From positions 1 to 46,261 of the forward strand of contig JAIUOR010000004.1 in the NCBI GenBank assembly GCA_020161795.1: DNA of 46,261 bases. Direction: 5' to 3'. The position numbers and the translations under genes are program-made. Source of the DNA: Actinomycetota bacterium (GTDB lineage Bacteria > Actinomycetota > Actinomycetes > Propionibacteriales > Propionibacteriaceae). This document shows, in pieces, positions 35,965-43,930 of this stretch; positions within the stretch are counted from its first letter, which is position 1; the number at the start of each line of letters is the position of its first letter. The notes under the pieces were generated by a model. The model was not told the origin of the DNA. It made no database searches and saw only the letters and a program-made list of their open reading frames with translations.

Positions 35965-36049
35965 TCAGATTTTCCTTCCACGACACTGTGACTAGCGGTG
36001 TTGGTGAGTAACGCGTCGGGACCGCCGGCCCAGGCGCTGCCTTGGGGGT

Positions 36050-36080
36050 GGGTGCGGGACGACTCCGCCGTCCCGCACCC
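36050..36080 (-). terminator. Perfect hairpin between glpF and glpK
   Basis: GGGTGCGGGACG (36050-36061) and CGTCCCGCACCC (36069-36080) form a perfect 12-bp stem with a 7-nt loop. There is no T-run on the minus strand, so partial termination or mRNA stabilisation is as likely as full termination. Confidence 0.55.
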
Positions 36081-36093
36081 GGATTGCTACCTA

Positions 36094-36840
36094 TCAGAGA
36101 CCCGGCAGCAGAACGCCAGCCAGCACGCCGGCGAGCACGCCGCCGATGATCGGGCCGACGACCGGAACCCAGGAGTAGCTCCAGTTGGAGTCACCCTTGT
36201 TGGGGATCGGGAGCACGGCATGCGCGATGCGCGGGCCGAGGTCACGAGCCGGGTTGATGGCGTAGCCGGTCGGGCCGCCGAGGGAGGCGCCGATACCGAC
36301 GATCAGCAGCGCCACCGGAAGCGCACCGAGCCAGCCGATGCCGTCCGTGGTGCCGGTGAAGTAGCCCAGAGCGATCACGAAGAGCACCAGCACGAAGGTG
36401 CCGATGGCCTCGGTGACGACGTTCCAGCCATTGCTGCGGATCTCGGGGCCGGTGGAGAACACACCCAGCTTGAAGCCATCGGGCTGTTCGGCATCGAACT
36501 GCTTCTTGTAGGCCAGCCAGCACAGCACAGCACCCAGGAAGGCGCCGATGAACTGCGCGACGATGTAGATCGCCACGCCGCCCCAATCGACGGCCTGACC
36601 GATGGCGAGGTTACGAGCAGCCAACCCGAGCGTGACGGCCGGGTTGAGGTGTCCGCCGGACTGGTAGGCGACCACAACGCCGGTGAAGACTGCCAAACCC
36701 CAGCCCCAGTTCACCATCAGGAAACCAGTGCCCTTGCCCTTGTTTCCATTGAGGATGTTGTTGGCGACCACGCCACCACCGAGGAGGAGCAGCATCATGG
36801 TGCCGACTACCTCGGATACGAAGATGGTTCCGTAGTCCAC
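36094..36840 (-). CDS. glpF: Glycerol facilitator, aquaglyceroporin
   Basis: The 248-residue MIP-family channel has both NPA boxes: HLNPAVTLG (66-68) and YAINPARDLGPR (196-198) with Arg199 and the aquaglyceroporin Asp200. Six helices and the long loops of GlpF are present. The channel lets glycerol cross the membrane by facilitated diffusion. The start is a GTG at 36840, with a GGAAAGTGAG stretch upstream and a good promoter at 36885-36913. It is the first gene of the minus-strand glycerol unit. Confidence 0.96.
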   Translation of the reverse strand: MDYGTIFVSEVVGTMMLLLLGGGVVANNILNGNKGKGTGFLMVNWGWGLAVFTGVVVAYQSGGHLNPAVTLGLAARNLAIGQAVDWGGVAIYIVAQFIGAFLGAVLCWLAYKKQFDAEQPDGFKLGVFSTGPEIRSNGWNVVTEAIGTFVLVLFVIALGYFTGTTDGIGWLGALPVALLIVGIGASLGGPTGYAINPARDLGPRIAHAVLPIPNKGDSNWSYSWVPVVGPIIGGVLAGVLAGVLLPGL

Positions 36841-36860
36841 GATTGCTCACTTTCCGACAC

Positions 36861-36875
36861 CTGACCTGGTGTCAG
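36861..36875 (-). promoter_or_regulatory. Dyad CTGAC-N5-GTCAG just downstream of the glpF start point
   Basis: CTGAC (36861-36865) and GTCAG (36871-36875) lie a few bases downstream of the predicted transcription start, a placement used by repressors. It is a candidate operator for a glycerol regulator; nothing in the sequence identifies the protein. Confidence 0.4.
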
Positions 36876-36884
36876 TTAGGGCGT

Positions 36885-36913
36885 CTATTACGACGCGATT
36901 GTTGTCTTTTCAA
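36885..36913 (-). promoter_or_regulatory. Sigma70-type promoter of glpF
   Basis: On the minus strand TTGAAA (36908-36913) and TAATAG (36885-36890) are separated by exactly 17 bp. The remainder of the divergent region, 36914-37258, contains no gene and no repeat that I can support. Confidence 0.7.
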
Positions 36914-37258
36914 CACGTGAGTCGGGATACCGACCGCCGACGGCTATCCGCGAGCCCGCGCGATGGGCGGGGTTCGCAGCCGACGACGGAGACGACCGGG
37001 GAGGCAGGCCCCGGACCTACAGCGCCTCGGGTTGGGCACCGGGGCCGGACGCGACGATCCGCCCGCCGCGGCCCGGCGGCATGAGCGGAGTACCGGCCCA
37101 AGGCCGAACGGAGGGACCGTCACCGACGTAAGGCAGAACTCCCGCGTGCGCCTGCACAGCAACCGCCGGGCTCATAGGACTCCTTCGTACGACGAACCAT
37201 CCGGAAAGGTCGAGACGGCAACACTCCTTGTGTCGCTCCCCTTCAGGTCACATCTTGC

Positions 37259-37295
37259 TAACGAATGAACGAATGCGCTAGACCTGTGAACGAAC
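37259..37295 (+). promoter_or_regulatory. Repeated ACGAA motifs upstream of the regulator gene
   Basis: ACGAA occurs at 37261-37265, 37269-37273 and 37290-37294; two of these are TGAACGAA, 21 bp apart and therefore on one DNA face. They lie 22-58 bp upstream of the regulator start, suitable for an autoregulatory operator. Confidence 0.4.
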
Positions 37296-37316
37296 GTGCA
37301 GCGAGAGGGTGAGGGC

Positions 37317-38273
37317 ATGAACGACCGGTACGAGGACATGTACCAGGCCGCGGCGCGCTACTACATCCAGGGCGAGACGATGGAGTCCATCGCGCGCGCC
37401 CTGCAGCTCTCGCGATCGTCGGTGTCGCGGCTGCTCAAGGAGGCCCGGGACTCCGGATTGGTGCGGATCAGCCTCGCCGACCACATCGGCTCCCAATCCC
37501 CGCTGGCGGCCAAACTGGCCAACACCTTCGGCGTGAAGGTGCACCTGGTTCCGGTTCGCGACAGCGCCAACGAGAACCTCCGTTTCGACCAGGTGGCGAA
37601 GCTGGCCGGACGGATCGTGACCGAGGCGGTGGGCGATCACCAGCTGATCGGAGCAGCCTGGGGTGTCACCCTGGCGCACCTCTCACGCCACCTCGGACGA
37701 CGGCCGCTGGTCGGCTCCACCATCGTCCAGATGAACGGCGGAGCGAACCAGCGCAGCTCCGGCATCCCGTACATCGGCGAGATACTGCAGACCATCGGCG
37801 ACGCCTTCGACTCGCGCGTGGTGCTCTTCCCCGTGCCGGCCTTCTTCGACTACGCCGCCACCAAGGACGCCATGTGGCGCGAACGCTCCGTGCAGAACGT
37901 GCTGCGCCTGCACGCCAAGCTCGATCTGGCGGTCTTCGGCGTCGGTTCCTTCCAAGGGGTGGTTCCCTCCCACGTCTATTCGGCCGGCTACATGGACGCC
38001 AGCGACATGCAGCGGCTGGCCGCCGACGGCGTCGTGGGGGACGTCTGCACCGTCCTGCTGCGCGAGGACGGCTCGTACGCCGACATCGAGTACAACGCGC
38101 GGGCCACCGGGCTGACCCCGGCCGAGTTGCAGAACGTGCCACGCCGGATCTGCGTGGTGGCCGACCCCTCCCGGGCCCCGGCCGTGATCGGTGCCCTGCG
38201 AGCCGGCACCGCCACCGACCTGGTGATCGACGAGGGCACGGCGCGCGCGATCGAGGAGCGCGTCCGGCTCTGA
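37317..38273 (+). CDS. SorC/DeoR-type sugar-binding transcriptional regulator
   Basis: The 318-residue regulator has an N-terminal HTH (AARYYIQGETMESIARALQLSRSSVSRLLKEARDSGLVRISL, about 10-55), then a SorC-family effector domain (about 70-318) resembling phosphosugar-binding proteins (GAAWGVTLAHLSRHLG, STIVQMNGG, VFGVGSFQG, DVCTVLLREDGSYAD). Its location between glpF/glpK and glpABC, divergent from the first, argues that it controls glycerol use, perhaps sensing glycerol 3-phosphate or dihydroxyacetone phosphate. That role is inferred. GAGAGGGTGAGGG precedes the ATG at 37317. Confidence 0.92.
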   Translation: MNDRYEDMYQAAARYYIQGETMESIARALQLSRSSVSRLLKEARDSGLVRISLADHIGSQSPLAAKLANTFGVKVHLVPVRDSANENLRFDQVAKLAGRIVTEAVGDHQLIGAAWGVTLAHLSRHLGRRPLVGSTIVQMNGGANQRSSGIPYIGEILQTIGDAFDSRVVLFPVPAFFDYAATKDAMWRERSVQNVLRLHAKLDLAVFGVGSFQGVVPSHVYSAGYMDASDMQRLAADGVVGDVCTVLLREDGSYADIEYNARATGLTPAELQNVPRRICVVADPSRAPAVIGALRAGTATDLVIDEGTARAIEERVRL

Positions 38274-38462
38274 GCCGCAGCTCCACCGCGGCCCGATTCC
38301 GCCTGGTCACCGCGTTTTCCCACACCACTGGGGCACACGTGCACGTCTGCACGATGTTCGCGGCGTCAGTGGCCGGTTGCAGCCGGCTGTCCTAGTCTGG
38401 CGCTGAGGGCACCTCGAAGAGGAGTCCCGGACGGAGTTGTCCAGGCTCGGATCGGAGGTTTC

Positions 38463-40040
38463 GTGCGCAAGTTGGCTGTCGATGTCGTCGTCATCGGAGG
38501 CGGCTCAACCGGCGTCGGAGTGGTGCGCGACGTGGCGATGCGCGGTTATTCCGCGGTGCTGCTCGAACGCGCCGATCTCGCCCAGGGCACCTCGGGACGG
38601 TTCCACGGGTTGCTGCACTCCGGCGGACGCTACGTGGTGAGCGACCCGGGCTCCGCGACGGAATGCGCCGAGGAGAACGTCATCGTCACCCGGATCCACG
38701 CCGACGCGGTGGAGCCCACGGGTGGCTACTTCGTGACCGCGCCCGGGGACGATCCCGAGTTCGCCGACAAGTTCTTGGCGGGCGCGGCCGCGACCGGCGT
38801 CCCTGCCCGGGAGATCAGCGTCGCCGAGGCACTGCGCAACGAACCGCGGTTGAACCCGGGCATCCTGCGCGCGGTCGAGGTGCAGGACGGCACCGTCGAC
38901 GGCTGGCAGATGACCTGGGGCGCCGCCCGCTCGGCCATGGAGTACGGCGCGAAGGTGCTGACCTACCACAAGGTCACCAAGATCGACCGGGCGGACGGGC
39001 GGGTCTCCGCCGTCCACTGCGTCGACCTGAAGGACGGCGAGGACGTCCGGATCGAGTGCACCTTCGTGCTGAACTGCGCCGGCCCGTGGGCGGGCCAGGT
39101 GGCGGCGATGGCCGATTGCCATCCGGTCGACGTCATTCCGGGCCGCGGCATCATGATCGCGATGAACCACCGGCTGGTGAACCGGGTGATCAACCGGCTG
39201 ATCTACCCCGCCGACGGCGACATCCTCGTCCCGGTGCACACCGTCTCGATCATCGGCACCACCGATGTGAAGGTGGAGAACCCCGACGACCTGGCGATCG
39301 AGCCCGTCGAGGTGCAGGAGATGCTGGACGCCGGCGAGATTCTGATCCCCGGCTTCCGCAAGTCGCGGGCGCTGCACGCCTGGGCGGGCGCCCGTCCGCT
39401 GATCAAGGACAGCCGCGTCTCCTCCTCCGACACCCGGCATATGAGCCGCGGCATGGCGGTGATCGACCACCACGAGCGCGATGGCCTGGACGGCATGCTC
39501 ACCATCGGCGGCGGCAAGCTCACCACCTACCGGCTGATGGCCGAACACATCGTCGACGAGATGTGCCGCAAGCTCGGTGAGACCCGTGCCTGCCGCACCG
39601 CGTCCGAGATCGTCCCGGGTTCGGAGAACCAGAAGAACTACGTGGTCACCCACCGGTTGCACGACCGGGAGGAGGATCGGCTGGAAGACCAGATCATCTG
39701 CGAATGCGAGCTGATGAGCCGGCAGATGTTCGTGAAGGCCTGGGACGACCAGCCGCAGGCGACCTTCGACGACATCCGGCGCCAGCTGCGGCTGGGGATG
39801 GGCCCCTGCCAGGGCGGCTTCTGCTCGATGCGGGCCACCGGCGTCGCACTGGAGACCAAGCACATCGACATCGAGCGGGCGACCGGCCTGCTGCGGCTCT
39901 TCCTGAAGAACCGCTGGATCGGGTTGTGGCCGATCCTCTACGGCGACCAGGTGCGCCAGACGGCGCTGGACAACTGGATCTTCAACGGAACCCTCGACAT
40001 CGACCATCTGCCCGCGCCGGAAGAAGAGGTGAAGCTGTGA
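38463..40040 (+). CDS. glpA: Anaerobic glycerol-3-phosphate dehydrogenase subunit A
   Basis: GlpA is the FAD-bearing subunit that oxidises glycerol 3-phosphate to dihydroxyacetone phosphate and passes electrons through GlpB and GlpC to the quinone pool. The 525-residue protein starts with the dinucleotide fold VVVIGGGSTGVGVVRDVAMRG (8-28), carries substrate residues around GRFHGLLHSGGRYV, and ends in a BFD-like [2Fe-2S] domain with Cys413 and Cys415 (IICECE) and Cys449 and Cys454 (GPCQGGFC). The GTG at 38463 follows CGGAGG. Its stop overlaps the glpB GTG as GTGA. Confidence 0.97.
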   Translation: MRKLAVDVVVIGGGSTGVGVVRDVAMRGYSAVLLERADLAQGTSGRFHGLLHSGGRYVVSDPGSATECAEENVIVTRIHADAVEPTGGYFVTAPGDDPEFADKFLAGAAATGVPAREISVAEALRNEPRLNPGILRAVEVQDGTVDGWQMTWGAARSAMEYGAKVLTYHKVTKIDRADGRVSAVHCVDLKDGEDVRIECTFVLNCAGPWAGQVAAMADCHPVDVIPGRGIMIAMNHRLVNRVINRLIYPADGDILVPVHTVSIIGTTDVKVENPDDLAIEPVEVQEMLDAGEILIPGFRKSRALHAWAGARPLIKDSRVSSSDTRHMSRGMAVIDHHERDGLDGMLTIGGGKLTTYRLMAEHIVDEMCRKLGETRACRTASEIVPGSENQKNYVVTHRLHDREEDRLEDQIICECELMSRQMFVKAWDDQPQATFDDIRRQLRLGMGPCQGGFCSMRATGVALETKHIDIERATGLLRLFLKNRWIGLWPILYGDQVRQTALDNWIFNGTLDIDHLPAPEEEVKL

Positions 40041-41371
40041 ACACCCCACGACGTTCTTCTCCTCCGCTGCGCTCCTCCGAACAACGTCATGGGGACCCCG
40101 TTGCGAGCCGCGTCATCGTGATCGGTGCCGGTGTCGCCGGCCTCACCGCCGCGCTGCGCCTGGCCCGCGCCGGGCTGAACGTCACCCTGCTCACCAAGGG
40201 AGTCGGCGGTCTGCAGCTCTCGCAGGGGACGGTGGACGTGCTGGGCTACTCCCCCACCGACCCCGCCACCCGCGTCGCCAACCCCCTGGCGGCCGTCGCC
40301 GAACTGGCGGTCGCCGACCCGAAGCACCCGTACGCGGTGATCGGGGTGGACGCGGTCCGCACCGGCCTCGCCTTCCTGCACGAGGAATTGGGCGAACAGC
40401 TGCTGGTCGGCGACCCCGAGACCAACCAGCTGTTCCCGACGGCGGTCGGAGCCATCCGTCCCACCTGCCTGGCGCAGCCCTCCATGCTGGCCGGCATCTG
40501 CATGGACGGGGCCCGGTTCGCGATCGTCGGGCTGCGCCGGCTCAAGGACTTCCATGCCGAGCTCATCGCCGGCAACCTCGCCCGCACCCCGCTGCCCGAC
40601 GGCGGCCACGTCAGCGCCCGACACCTGACGATCGACGTGCCCGCCCGCCCCCGCGAGGTGGACTCCTCCGGCCTCACCTATGCCCGGGCCTTCGACGACC
40701 CCGAGTTCCGTGCCCGCTTCGCCGCCGAACTGCGTCCGGAGTTGCGTCCGGAGGAGACGGTCGGGCTGCCCGCCGTCCTCGGGCTGAAGGATCCGACCGC
40801 CTGGAGCCACCTGGCCGACCTGCTCGACCACCCGGTCTTCGAGATCCCGCTGCCACCGCCGTCGGTGCCCGGGATGCGGCTGAACAACGCGCTGATGGCC
40901 GCCGCCCGAGCAGCCGGGGTGCGGGTGATCAACGGCTCCTTCGTGGACACCCCGGTGCACTCCGGCGGACGGCTGGTCAGCGTGAACGTCGAGACGGCCG
41001 GTGCGCCGCGGACGATCACCGGTGACGTGTTCGTCCTGGCCACGGGCGGTTTCGAATCCGGCGCCCTGACGCTCGACTCCTACGGCGAGGTCACCGAGCG
41101 GGTCCTCGGCCTGCCGCTGGCCGGGCTGGACGCCGCACCGCTGCTCCACGGCGACTACTGGGGTGGCGAGCAGCCCCTGTTCCGGGTCGGGGTGGCGGTG
41201 GATCCGTCCATGCGGGTGACCAGCCCGGACGGGTCTGCCGTCCCCGACAATCTGTGGGCGGCGGGCGGCATCCTCGCCGGTGCCGTCCGATGGACCGAGA
41301 AGTCGGGTGAGGGCATCGCCGTGGGCAGCGCGGTGAAGGCCGCCGACGCGATCGTGGAGGAGTTGGCATGA
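40037..41371 (+). CDS. glpB: Anaerobic glycerol-3-phosphate dehydrogenase subunit B
   Basis: The 444-residue flavoprotein of GlpABC has its FAD-binding start at RVIVIGAGVAGLTAALRLARAGLNVTLLTKGVGG. It is preceded by an unusual ~23-residue extension, VNTPRRSSPPLRSSEQRHGD, encoded by a palindromic element that also occurs at the start of glpC. The conserved protein continues to FVLATGGFESG, LWAAGGILAG and a C-terminal GIAVGSAVKAADAIVEEL. The GTG at 40037 is chosen because it overlaps the glpA stop; no good ribosome site exists downstream of the element. Translational coupling to glpA is likely. Confidence 0.93.
   Translation: MNTPRRSSPPLRSSEQRHGDPVASRVIVIGAGVAGLTAALRLARAGLNVTLLTKGVGGLQLSQGTVDVLGYSPTDPATRVANPLAAVAELAVADPKHPYAVIGVDAVRTGLAFLHEELGEQLLVGDPETNQLFPTAVGAIRPTCLAQPSMLAGICMDGARFAIVGLRRLKDFHAELIAGNLARTPLPDGGHVSARHLTIDVPARPREVDSSGLTYARAFDDPEFRARFAAELRPELRPEETVGLPAVLGLKDPTAWSHLADLLDHPVFEIPLPPPSVPGMRLNNALMAAARAAGVRVINGSFVDTPVHSGGRLVSVNVETAGAPRTITGDVFVLATGGFESGALTLDSYGEVTERVLGLPLAGLDAAPLLHGDYWGGEQPLFRVGVAVDPSMRVTSPDGSAVPDNLWAAGGILAGAVRWTEKSGEGIAVGSAVKAADAIVEELA
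40044..40094 (+). repeat. In-frame palindromic element at the glpB start
   Basis: The 12-bp arms CCCCACGACGTT (40044-40055) and AACGTCATGGGG (40083-40094) pair at 11 of 12 positions around a 27-nt loop. The loop encodes SSPPLRSSE; the element is translated as part of GlpB. A related copy lies at 41375-41425. Confidence 0.8.
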
Positions 41372-42657
41372 ATACCCCGCAGAGTTCTCCTCCTCCGCGC
41401 CGCTCCCCCGAACAACTCTCCGGGGACCCCGCAGTGAGCGACAGCCTCGATTTCGCCGGGCACGAGTTCGCCCGGGCAAGTCTCGACCACTGCGTGAAAT
41501 GCACGATCTGCGAGACGGTCTGCCCGGTCTCCGCGGTGACCCCGCTGTTCAGCGGTCCGAAGTTCGTCGGCCCGCAGGCCGAACGGTTCCGCAACGGCGA
41601 ATCCGTCGACCACTCGCTGGATTACTGCTCCAGCTGTGGCGCCTGCACGCTGGCCTGCCCCCAGGGCGTCCAGATCGCCGAGCTGAACTCGCAGGCCCGC
41701 GCGGTGATGAAGGCCGACCACATGCCGGTGCGCGACCGACTGATCTCGCAGACCACCCTGATGGGGACGATGATGACGCCGGTCGCGCCGCTCGCCAACG
41801 CGGTGCTGGCCAACAAGCCGATCCGGACGGTGGTGGAGAAGGTCTTCGGCGTCCATCGGGACGCCCCGATGCCCCCGGCCCAGACCCAGACCATCCAGGG
41901 CTGGCTGAAGAAGCGTGGTCCGCGGAAGACCCCGGCCACCCGCGGTCCCATCGTCTTCTTCCACGGCTGCGCGGGCGGCTACTTCGAGGTCGAGACCTCG
42001 AAGCGCTCGATCGAGGTGCTGGAGCACCTCGGCTACGAGGTGCTCGTCCCCAAGCAGGGCTGCTGCGGCCTGGCCCAGCAGTCGAACGGCCTGTTCGACC
42101 AGGCCACCGACGCCGTCCTGAAGCTCTGCGACGACCTGCGCGCGGCGGGCGAACTGACGATCGTGTCGTCGTCCGGTTCCTGCACCGGCATGCTCAAGCA
42201 CGAGGCACACGAGATCATGGGCGTGGACGACGAGCGGCTGAAGGACGTCGCCACCCGGATCCGGGACATGATGGAGTTCCTGCTCGAAGTGGCGGACGCC
42301 GGCGAGCTGCCCGAGCTCTCCCCGATCGAGATGACCGTCCCGTACCACGCCCCCTGCCAGCTGAAGAGCCAGGGCATGGGCATGCCGGCGCTGGACGTGC
42401 TACGGCTGATCCCGGGCCTGACCGTTGTCGAATCGGGCGCCACCTGCTGCGGCATCGCCGGCACGTACGGGCTGAAGAAGGAGAAGTACGAGATCGCCCA
42501 GGCGGTCGGCAAGCCGCTGTTCGAGATGGTGCGCGACACCAACCCCGACCTGGCCCTGTGCGACACCGAGACCTGCCGCTGGCAGATCCGCAAGGGCTCC
42601 GGCGTCCCCACCGAGCACCCGGTCTTCCTGATCCACCAGGCCCTGGGCCTCTCGTAG
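41368..42657 (+). CDS. glpC: Anaerobic glycerol-3-phosphate dehydrogenase subunit C
   Basis: GlpC is the membrane-associated iron-sulfur subunit. The 429-residue protein has two [4Fe-4S] motifs: Cys42/45/48/52 (CVKCTICETVCP) and Cys87/90/93/97 (CSSCGACTLACP). Two CCG domains follow (GCCGLAQQ, TCCGIAGTYG). Its first 23 residues, MNTPQSSPPPRRSPEQLSGD..., are encoded by the second palindromic element and resemble the GlpB extension. A GGAGGAG sits upstream of the ATG at 41368, which overlaps the glpB stop as ATGA. A GTG at 41434 after the element (VSDSLDFAGHEF) could have been the ancestral start. Confidence 0.95.
   Translation: MNTPQSSPPPRRSPEQLSGDPAVSDSLDFAGHEFARASLDHCVKCTICETVCPVSAVTPLFSGPKFVGPQAERFRNGESVDHSLDYCSSCGACTLACPQGVQIAELNSQARAVMKADHMPVRDRLISQTTLMGTMMTPVAPLANAVLANKPIRTVVEKVFGVHRDAPMPPAQTQTIQGWLKKRGPRKTPATRGPIVFFHGCAGGYFEVETSKRSIEVLEHLGYEVLVPKQGCCGLAQQSNGLFDQATDAVLKLCDDLRAAGELTIVSSSGSCTGMLKHEAHEIMGVDDERLKDVATRIRDMMEFLLEVADAGELPELSPIEMTVPYHAPCQLKSQGMGMPALDVLRLIPGLTVVESGATCCGIAGTYGLKKEKYEIAQAVGKPLFEMVRDTNPDLALCDTETCRWQIRKGSGVPTEHPVFLIHQALGLS
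41375..41425 (+). repeat. In-frame palindromic element at the glpC start
   Basis: The arms CCCCGCAGAGTT (41375-41386) and AACTCTCCGGGG (41414-41425) pair at 11 of 12 positions around a 27-nt loop, with the same mismatch position as the glpB copy and four compensatory pair changes relative to it. The two 72-bp start regions share about 54 identical positions. Confidence 0.8.
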
Positions 42658-42871
42658 ACAGGTTGCCGGAGGCGCCCTTCGCACTGTCGGCTCCAACCTG
42701 GGAGACGGCGATCCATCCCGGCTTCAGCCACGCGGCCGAATCCCACACCAGCCATCGCGTAACCACCCGGACGGCGCGTACCGACCTCTGTGGGTGGCCG
42801 CGACGTCGGGTCCTCACGCTGGGACATCGCTAGGATCTCGGCGTGGCCCACGAGTGGATGGGGTGAGGGAG

Positions 42872-43930
42872 ATGCCGAGCAGAAGCGCCCGTTCGGGGCT
42901 GACCCAGGCCGGCGTTGTCGGCCTCTCCGTCGCGACCGCACTCGGCGGAGCGGTGATCGGCGGCGGGATCGTCCAGCTCGCCGCTCCCACCCCCGGCTCC
43001 TGCGATGCCAGCCGCGTGGCAGCCGACGCTCTCCCCGCAGTGGTCACCATCTTCGTCACCGGGCCGAAAGGCGGCGGCGCCGGCAGCGGCGCGATCATCG
43101 ACCCGGGCGGGCTGATCATCACCAACGACCACGTGATCGCCGCTGGCGTGACCGACGGCACCATCGACGTCCTGCTCACCGACGGCTCCACGGCGGAGGC
43201 GAGCGTTGTGGGCACCGATCCGGTCACCGACCTGGCCCTGCTGCGCATCGACGGATCCCGGCTGCCCACCCTCACCCTCGCTCCGCGAGAGCCGCTGCGG
43301 GTCGGGCAGCCGGTGGTCGCCCTCGGCGCGCCACTCGGGCTCTCCGGGACGGTCACCGCGGGCATCGTCAGCGCGCTGGGGCGCAACATCCCGGCTCCTA
43401 CCAGCACCGGCGGCACCACCATTCTCGCCGGCGCCATCCAGACCGACGCGTCCATCAATCCCGGCAACTCCGGCGGTCCGCTGGTCACCTGCGACGGCCG
43501 GCTGGTCGGAATCAATACCGCCATCTCCACCGTTCCCAACGCGGACGGCACCGCCGGTGGCGGCAGCGTCGGGATCGGCTTCGCCGTCCCCGCGTCTACG
43601 GCTCAGCGGATCGTGAACGAATTGCTCGCCAACGGCCGAGCCACCCATCCCTGGATGGGGATCGCGGCAGCCGAGATCTCCGAGCAGACCGCTGCCGACT
43701 TCGACACCGTGCCTGGCCTGTACCTGCAGCAGGTGGTCGCCGGCAGCCCGGCCGAAGCCGCCGGGCTGCGGGCGGGCGACATCATCACCAAGCTGAACGG
43801 TGGCGCCGCCAATTCGGTCTCACTGGCCTGGCTGCTGGTGTCGGCCGAGATCGGCGACGAGGTGACGATCGGCTACCTCCGCGGCGACACCCCCGGCGAG
43901 ACCACGCTGACTCTGATCGAACAACCCTGA
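42872..43930 (+). CDS. HtrA/DegP-like trypsin-fold serine protease with PDZ domain
   Basis: The 352-residue S1C protease is anchored or exported by an N-terminal hydrophobic segment (about 14-37, VVGLSVATALGGAVIGGGIVQLA). The triad is His87 (ITNDHVIAAG), Asp120 (VTDLALLRID) and Ser200 (NPGNSGGPLV), followed by IGFAVPASTAQRIVNELLANG, and a PDZ domain (about 265-345, VVAGSPAEAAGLRAGDIITKLNG). It is a quality-control protease or chaperone of the cell envelope. Start choice is uncertain: ATG at 42872 has its purine tract GAGGGAG abutting it, and GTG at 42863 is an alternative. The spacer 42658-42862 shows no other gene. Confidence 0.9.
   Translation: MPSRSARSGLTQAGVVGLSVATALGGAVIGGGIVQLAAPTPGSCDASRVAADALPAVVTIFVTGPKGGGAGSGAIIDPGGLIITNDHVIAAGVTDGTIDVLLTDGSTAEASVVGTDPVTDLALLRIDGSRLPTLTLAPREPLRVGQPVVALGAPLGLSGTVTAGIVSALGRNIPAPTSTGGTTILAGAIQTDASINPGNSGGPLVTCDGRLVGINTAISTVPNADGTAGGGSVGIGFAVPASTAQRIVNELLANGRATHPWMGIAAAEISEQTAADFDTVPGLYLQQVVAGSPAEAAGLRAGDIITKLNGGAANSVSLAWLLVSAEIGDEVTIGYLRGDTPGETTLTLIEQP

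Follow-up and report, generated by a model that had tools for sequence, protein, structure and literature searches.

Among the small palindromic elements described in bacteria, repetitive extragenic palindromes with their associated tyrosine transposases (REP/RAYT) and miniature inverted-repeat transposable elements (MITEs) derived from the insertion sequences IS200/IS605 are small hairpins with a short fixed target that act as strand-specific single-stranded DNA. Rickettsia palindromic elements (RPEs) are in-frame palindromic repeats inside coding sequence adding residues to unrelated proteins, and the integron attC site is a substrate in the form of folded bottom-strand DNA. Closest to the case reported here are the mycobacterial interspersed repetitive units (MIRUs), whose insertion at start codons was reportedly described by Supply et al. 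in 1997. PMC12548453 states that MIRUs insert at start codons, their internal open reading frame (ORF) becoming coupled to the gene at -4 nt. PMC2734929 describes a dispersed repeat of about 40-100 bp with an exact function that is not well understood, MIRU loci with variable numbers of tandem repeats (MIRU-VNTR) being commonly used for genotyping of M. tuberculosis. Here, we analyse a window of 46,261 nucleotides from a Propionibacteriaceae genome of the genus Propionicimonas (assembly GCA_020161795.1, contig JAIUOR010000004.1, positions 1 to 46,261), in which two copies of a hairpin repeat stand at the starts of glpB and glpC in the glpABC operon. We propose that the repeat is very probably a MIRU-type mobile element, a small hairpin that inserts at NTGA and preserves the coupling of the genes between which it lands.

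A dispersed hairpin repeat at stop/start overlaps

The preliminary description, made from the window alone, had reported two 72-bp segments of about 75% identity immediately after the start codons of glpB and glpC, each forming a stem of 12 positions with a 27-nt loop. We find a best ungapped match of 54/72 positions (40038 versus 41369), with 44/57 in the 57-nt cores, and stem and loop hold in both copies. The four stem pairs differing between them (A-T/G-C, G-C/A-T, A-T/G-C, C-G/A-T) are all compensatory, and the one mismatch common to both (C.A and C.C) occupies core columns 7/47. The segments do stand at the starts, more exactly on NTGA, i.e. on a start codon overlapping the stop of the preceding gene. 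The glp copies are two members of a family of 23 copies found by the proposed covariance-model search of the genome (all E <= 1e-10, next match E = 0.3, no partial copies above E = 0.3) and represent lineage-specific insertions turned into N-terminal tags. The model was built from 70 distinct 57-nt cores of the genome and of databases, using 70 of 71 distinct cores and leaving out locus L021 with a 3-nt deletion (L and G numbers are our labels for loci and genomes). With the glpB segment as query, 21 further strong places were found in its own genome (E <= 3e-11), the glpC copy not being among them. The resemblance between the segments is therefore much greater than chance would produce. The repeat is a hairpin of ~61 bp, or a 65-bp unit counting the new ATGA at its 3' end, and three tandem pairs with a period of 65 or 66 bp are present among the 23 copies. 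The flanking genes, read by eye from their translations, are ordinary operon neighbours in unrelated operons. The apparent junctions are argD-argR, argJ-argB, hisH-hisA, dhaL-dhaM, feoB-feoC, rph-rdgB, marR-MFS and ABC-transporter pairs, these names being a reading of the translations with only the glp genes checked by profile.

All 23 copies begin at NTGA. In 20/23 the TGA is the stop of a long, gene-like frame lying upstream and overlaps with the start (NTG) of the next gene; the remaining copies, L003, L008 and L010, each form the second unit of a tandem pair. Read from the 5' NTG, the frame stops after 21-22 codons in 10/23 copies and continues into the downstream gene in 13/23, glpB and glpC among them. 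In a wider set of 188 copies recovered with the model, 134 stand on an NTGA that closes a frame of 60 or more codons, 21 at a start only and 33 at neither, and only 158/9241 shifted control windows lie on such an NTGA. G+C-rich DNA contains long open frames by chance, and 19 of the 134 copies counted as coupled lack a coding-like G+C order upstream, including L008 and the dhaL start of the same-genus genome G102 (L144); with this order required, 115/188 copies pass compared to 20/9241 shifted windows. For this set 165/174 matches were kept, those dropped being duplicate views (L151 twice, L157 twice), reverse matches to the palindrome (L213, L298), incomplete matches (L162 1633, L273 1501) and a weak one (L148 1565). 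The frame-test windows miss L021 owing to the deletion in its core, and a further 87 copies, obtained from named genomes by a loop-pattern scan, overlap in species with the model set and were not added.

The coding phase supports an insertion that respects the operon. For counts of ends and phase 187 of the 188 copies were usable, one L162 copy being lost where a contig end cuts its flank; 150/187 have NTGA at the 5' end and 105/187 at both ends. The spacing of the two NTGA modulo 3 is 2 in 86 of these 105 copies, which rebuilds the stop/start overlap, 0 in 18, which fuses the genes with the inner NTG kept, and 1 in a single copy. The downstream gene is thereby in phase in 104/105 (P = 1.7e-17 if copies were independent). 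The rule holds across core lengths of 45 to 63 nt and three reading frames, with spacings of 48, 53, 56, 59, 62, 65-69, 71, 74, 75 and 83 nt. In the re-coupled copies the core measures 45 to 63 nt and most mini-ORFs comprise 18-25 codons, and fusion, found in 18/105 of the wider set, accounts for 13/23 in this genome. A Shine-Dalgarno (SD) core precedes the 5' start in 41/86 re-coupled copies and the 3' start in 7/86. Ahead of the 3' start the 3' arm contributes an SD-like GGGG(A) that belongs to the element and is predicted to pair with the anti-SD at -5.7 kcal/mol in 50/86, similar to the 5' start (P = 0.28).

Empty sites and the origin of the fusions

Filled and empty versions of the same sites could be compared. 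GlpB was found in 31/60 genomes, this one included, and the loci of 29 relatives were read, in which the covariance model finds no element anywhere and in which the glpA-glpB and glpB-glpC junctions are readable in 27 loci each. The comparison of the glpB and glpC starts called for in the preliminary description shows that the extension is not conserved, both junctions being bare NTGA overlaps in G102, whose GlpB is 88% identical. At the dhaL start the element is present in G102 and absent here, exactly 65 bp being inserted between flanks identical at 79/80 positions (..CGC-GTGA-GCGAC.. here versus ..CGC-GTGA-[..]-ATGA-GCGAC.. in G102). Because the dhaK frame seems to stop some ten bases upstream of this GTGA, the target is the dhaL start codon and not an overlap with dhaK. 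In G102 (L144) the dhaK stop is followed by a three-codon ORF (ATG ACC GCG TGA) ahead of the GTGA start of dhaL, so that even there the GTG overlaps a stop codon. The dhaL-dhaM junction carries the element here and a bare ATGA in G102, hisH-hisA is empty in 8/8 genus relatives and argJ-argB in 7/7 readable ones. The marR-MFS junction reads GTGA in G121 and GTGA..ATGA here, most other genomes not being alignable at this place. As both GTGA targets, dhaL and marR-MFS, carry ATGA at the 3' end, the 5' NTGA is that of the target and the first letter of the 3' ATGA is brought by the element. A strict 4-bp target duplication was considered and rejected, since the 5' tetranucleotide shows no association with the 3' one (Fisher P = 0.14) and these two targets combine GTGA with ATGA. 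Other sites are common to this genome and G102 (L009, L010/L021, L011, L016, L017, L020, L022), indicating that insertions accumulated over time.

In the mechanism we propose, the target is a start codon followed by A, mostly within the overlap of an upstream stop and a downstream start. The target supplies the 5' NTGA and the element adds ~61 bp and the new 3' ATGA, which is equivalent to a duplication of TGA together with an element-borne A. Ribosomes leaving the upstream gene would translate the mini-ORF of ~22 codons, melting the hairpin as they pass, and start again at the new ATGA, so that operon coupling would be kept and the insertion would be nearly neutral. Later changes in length may delete the stop of the mini-ORF or the old start and thereby join mini-ORF and gene, the state seen in glpB and glpC, and the conserved stem and loop would act during transposition as single-stranded DNA of the non-coding strand. 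At glpB the spacing is 66 nt rather than 65 and the ancestral start position has become GCG, which probably leaves GlpB no way of being made without the extension. An argB-like gene (L013:1500-1570) is likewise fused to an element with GCG at the ancestral ATG position, and both fusions look obligatory for this reason; the argB-like kinase should carry a tag of ~20 residues. In glpC, the GTG at 41434 is a possible second in-frame start.

Three further junctions were observed in relatives. Tandem copies lie ~1.2 kb upstream of argJ-argB in two genomes of the same genus (L361:198-319 in G128, L362:221-342 in G127), where another junction of the arg operon is hit. At the rph-rdgB-like junction that G102 (L272:3840-3930) shares with L022, an extra ATGACCACCGGC precedes the G102 copy and is possibly the remnant of an earlier element end. 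The junction of an amino-acid ABC transporter permease and ATPase-like gene holds the element in Propionicimonas (L017) and at several Nocardioides loci (L282, L284, L206, L209, L109, L056) with 5' offsets of 2 or 5 nt among loci, which looks like an old shared insertion, transfer or repeated hits.

Related matches are found in 9/117 genomes of the family (E <= 0.01), 77/293 of the order (E <= 0.001) and 46/394 of the class (E <= 0.1), copy numbers per genome in order and class being lower bounds as at most 19 or 14 candidates per genome, respectively, were scored. Within the genus, 3/10 genomes of the family survey have copies, and G130, G127, G128, G124 and G134 are further carriers.

Probable active strand, mobiliser and rival explanations

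The stem covaries, with 54 cells changed on both sides compared to 26.1 +- 2.9 after shuffling (0/500) and at most 14 for slid stems. Among 125 distinct cores, 172 cells hold a G.T wobble on the non-coding strand, where the coding strand reads A.C, versus 25 with G.T on the coding strand. For three copies, folds of non-coding-strand DNA depart most from shuffles (z -2.0, -1.9, -3.2), those of coding-strand DNA least (-1.1, -0.6, -1.7) and those of RNA lie between (-1.7, -1.0, -2.6), the lowest non-coding-strand fold of the glpC copy not being the stem. The loop motif GCTnCGC (bottom strand GCGNAGC) is intact in 164/187 copies when located by best match per copy, which favours fixed letters, with n being G in 104, T in 39, C in 15 and A in 6. 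According to PMC4686876, GCGNAGC is an extraordinarily stable DNA mini-hairpin for any N, a GNA triloop closed by G-C pairs. Stem wobbles and motif together suggest that single-stranded DNA of the non-coding strand is most likely the active form in transposition.

A regulatory RNA hairpin setting the stoichiometry of the GlpABC subunits, as the preliminary description had considered, would explain the stable mRNA hairpins (-18.7 and -15.9 kcal/mol), the covarying stem and the SD-like GGGG(A) before the 3' start. We consider this very unlikely, as the same element occurs in unrelated operons and is missing from the glp loci of 29 relatives, its presence is patchy within the genus, the wobbles fit the other strand and the top-strand RNA of both glp copies has an unexceptional fold, a little better than its shuffles (z -1.7, -1.0). 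In the region 36000-43000 of the window Rfam gave two weak matches, both below gathering score and outside the elements. The same small hairpin, with its fixed target tetranucleotide and strand asymmetry, would also fit an element of the REP/RAYT or IS200/IS605 type that depends on a Y1 (HUH) transposase, and in size and target it resembles these systems, strand-specific single-stranded DNA being only suspected for the present family. It differs from them in its position at gene starts and in the distribution of the enzyme: Y1_Tnp (E <= 1e-8) is found in 10/293 order genomes, in 2/77 element-bearing genomes (G130, G334) and neither in G102 nor in the genome studied here, which is 95.6% complete. 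This distribution largely refutes a Y1 mobiliser, and a Y1-moved element is very improbable.

Similar residues on GlpB and GlpC might instead point to a selected peptide, in which the extension NTPxxSSPPLRSPEQ would have a protein function, e.g. in targeting or complex assembly, and 119/125 cores are indeed stop-free in all three sense frames (47% in shuffles). We regard this as highly improbable: the 5' start reads the core in three frames (113, 21 and 16 of 150 copies), a spread that argues against selection for one shared peptide, and 86/105 copies with both NTGA encode a separate mini-ORF. Extremely unlikely is an RPE-like element tolerated inside proteins, the resemblance drawn in the preliminary description. 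In-frame insertion and a hairpin are shared with RPEs, but 150/187 copies have the 5' NTGA and sit at start codons, mostly on stop/start overlaps, and not inside coding sequence, which refutes the reading as regards position. In addition, a mini-ORF state exists and fusion is secondary and a minority in the wider set. What did hold from the preliminary description is the alternative of a mobile repeat tolerated as a leader, supported by the 23 dispersed copies, the empty sites in relatives and the frame-preserving insertion.

Several results weigh against a mobile, coupling-preserving hairpin acting as non-coding-strand DNA. No mobiliser was found, the search covering Y1 transposases. The number of pairs with change on both sides is 4, matched by 66/500 shuffles; 140/172 wobbles come from two columns (6/48, 9/45), without which 32 stand against 21; and the loop motif, placed by a best match favouring its fixed letters, is kept in only 14/23 copies here and not in glpC. 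Antisense frames are about as stop-free as sense frames (116/125 cores), so the absence of stops need not be selection for a mini-ORF. Some copies found in different species occupy one site by common inheritance, so counts of copies are not independent. Finally, 33/188 copies are at no start. Six Propionibacteriaceae genomes in which the element tends to be intergenic (G115, G099, G032, G079, G021, G043) contribute 21 of these, showing the same stem plan and no 5' NTGA; the corresponding 22-copy group was defined after this absence had been noticed. The family has a non-coupled habit in other Propionibacteriaceae.

Diverged subfamilies are seen in some of these genomes (L146-L148, L155, L161 and L166 in G115, G099 and G032; L149 in G021; L153 in G079). 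They share stem plan and ACCCC flanks, have other loops (e.g. GTCCTCCCTCCGCTGCGCTCCGGTCCGG), lack NTGA, are often in tandem and reach up to 38 matches per genome. A vehicle was sought as well, with no match in viral contigs (exact loop pattern), in plasmids or in phages (one copy as query, E <= 1e-3).

Relation to MIRUs and organisation of the glp locus

The mobile element proposed here resembles MIRUs in being a short dispersed repeat, single or in tandem (65-bp unit, 23 copies, three tandem pairs), and in inserting at start codons with an internal ORF coupled at -4 nt. A MIRU unit printed in PMC7977185 folds into a hairpin with a loop holding CGCTGCGCTC. The sequences of MIRU and the present family differ, a local alignment score of 14 being reached by 74/2000 dinucleotide shuffles, with CTCCTC..CGCTGCGCTC in the loops of both. 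Among MIRU matches with one mismatch in the mycobacterial genus, 28/38 listed places, tandem copies included, differ at the loop N. The stem CCCC.CGACGTT with ACCCC flanks is a point of difference, as is the host, which belongs to Propionicimonas and thus to another order. The two also prefer opposite orientations: in our family the coding strand is almost always the one with CGCTNCGCTC, antisense coupling passing the test in only 2/188 copies (L215, L309). In contrast, 25 loci with the MIRU loop from one genus comprise 9 coupled antisense, 3 coupled in sense and 13 uncoupled by our test, and 7 of the 25 have a 17-18-codon mini-ORF from NTGA to NTGA (2 sense, 5 antisense). The mechanism matches the logic reported for MIRUs. 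Membership is not claimed, because host, sequence and orientation differ and the loop similarity is reached by the shuffles mentioned; homology is suggestive only. Integron attC sites would be alike in bottom-strand folding, with no gene cassette seen here.

Tentatively, and with somewhat less than even confidence, we suggest that mobile DNA hairpins of this kind might form one superfamily across the Actinomycetes, with MIRUs as its branch in mycobacteria. Its members would combine a variable covarying stem with a loop whose non-coding strand holds the hyperstable GCGNAGC mini-hairpin, move as single-stranded DNA by a non-Y1 enzyme and be built to rebuild stop/start coupling, with few stops in any frame, their own ATGA and their own SD-like GGGG. 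Environmental relatives with filled and empty pairs, many copies and frame-scored junctions make function and spread of MIRUs testable, and the family supplies more than a hundred experiments set up by nature in which translational coupling and the origin of start-site fusions can be studied. For annotation, N-terminal extensions of the form M-x-TPRRSSPPLRSPEQ should be taken as repeat-derived. The literature searched, outside which most subscription papers lie, showed no description of such elements outside mycobacteria.

Curated profiles confirmed the identities of glpA, glpB and glpC, and since the best ones for GlpB and GlpC begin downstream of the extension (Table 1), it lies outside the domain. 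In the glpC copy the loop motif is changed to CGCGCCGCTC, so GCGNAGC is not kept.

Table 1. Coordinates of the glp genes, their junctions and the two element copies in the window
Feature	Position	Strand	Basis or remark
glpA	38463..40040	+	NCBIfam GlpA equivalog TIGR03377, 684 bits versus cut-off 553; reading frame
glpA TGA stop	40038-40040	+	overlaps glpB start
Junction 1, GTGA (glpA stop/glpB start), insertion target	40037..40040	+	bare GTGA or ATGA in most relatives' loci shown
Element copy 1, 57-nt core	40043..40099	+	covariance model E=4.2e-14
Copy 1 stem arms; loop	40044-40055 and 40083-40094; 40056-40082	+	pairing checked
Copy 1 loop motif GCTGCGC (bottom strand GCGCAGC)	40066-40072	+	
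Copy 1 3' junction GTTGCG	40100..40105	+	compared with empty sites, among them GCTGTGACCCGCGTC in G102
glpB, extended at the N-terminus by element-encoded VNTPRRSSPPLRSSEQRHGDPV	40037..41371	+	best GlpB profiles begin at residue 23-26
Junction 2, ATGA (glpB stop/glpC start)	41368..41371	+	
Element copy 2, 57-nt core	41374..41430	+	covariance model E=6.9e-12
Copy 2 stem arms	41375-41386 and 41414-41425	+	pairing checked
GTG where ancestral glpC start stood (GTGAGCGACAGC versus ATGAGCGAAGGT in G102)	41434..41436	+	comparison with relatives
glpC with element-encoded N-terminal extension MNTPQSSPPPRRSPEQLSGDPA	41368..42657	+	best GlpC equivalogs begin at residue 35-38

Beside glpABC, the window encodes a MIP-family channel-like protein (36094-36840, minus strand) and a DeoR/LsrR-like regulator (37296-38273, plus strand), both below curated cut-offs, which together with glpABC perhaps form a locus for glycerol uptake and oxidation.

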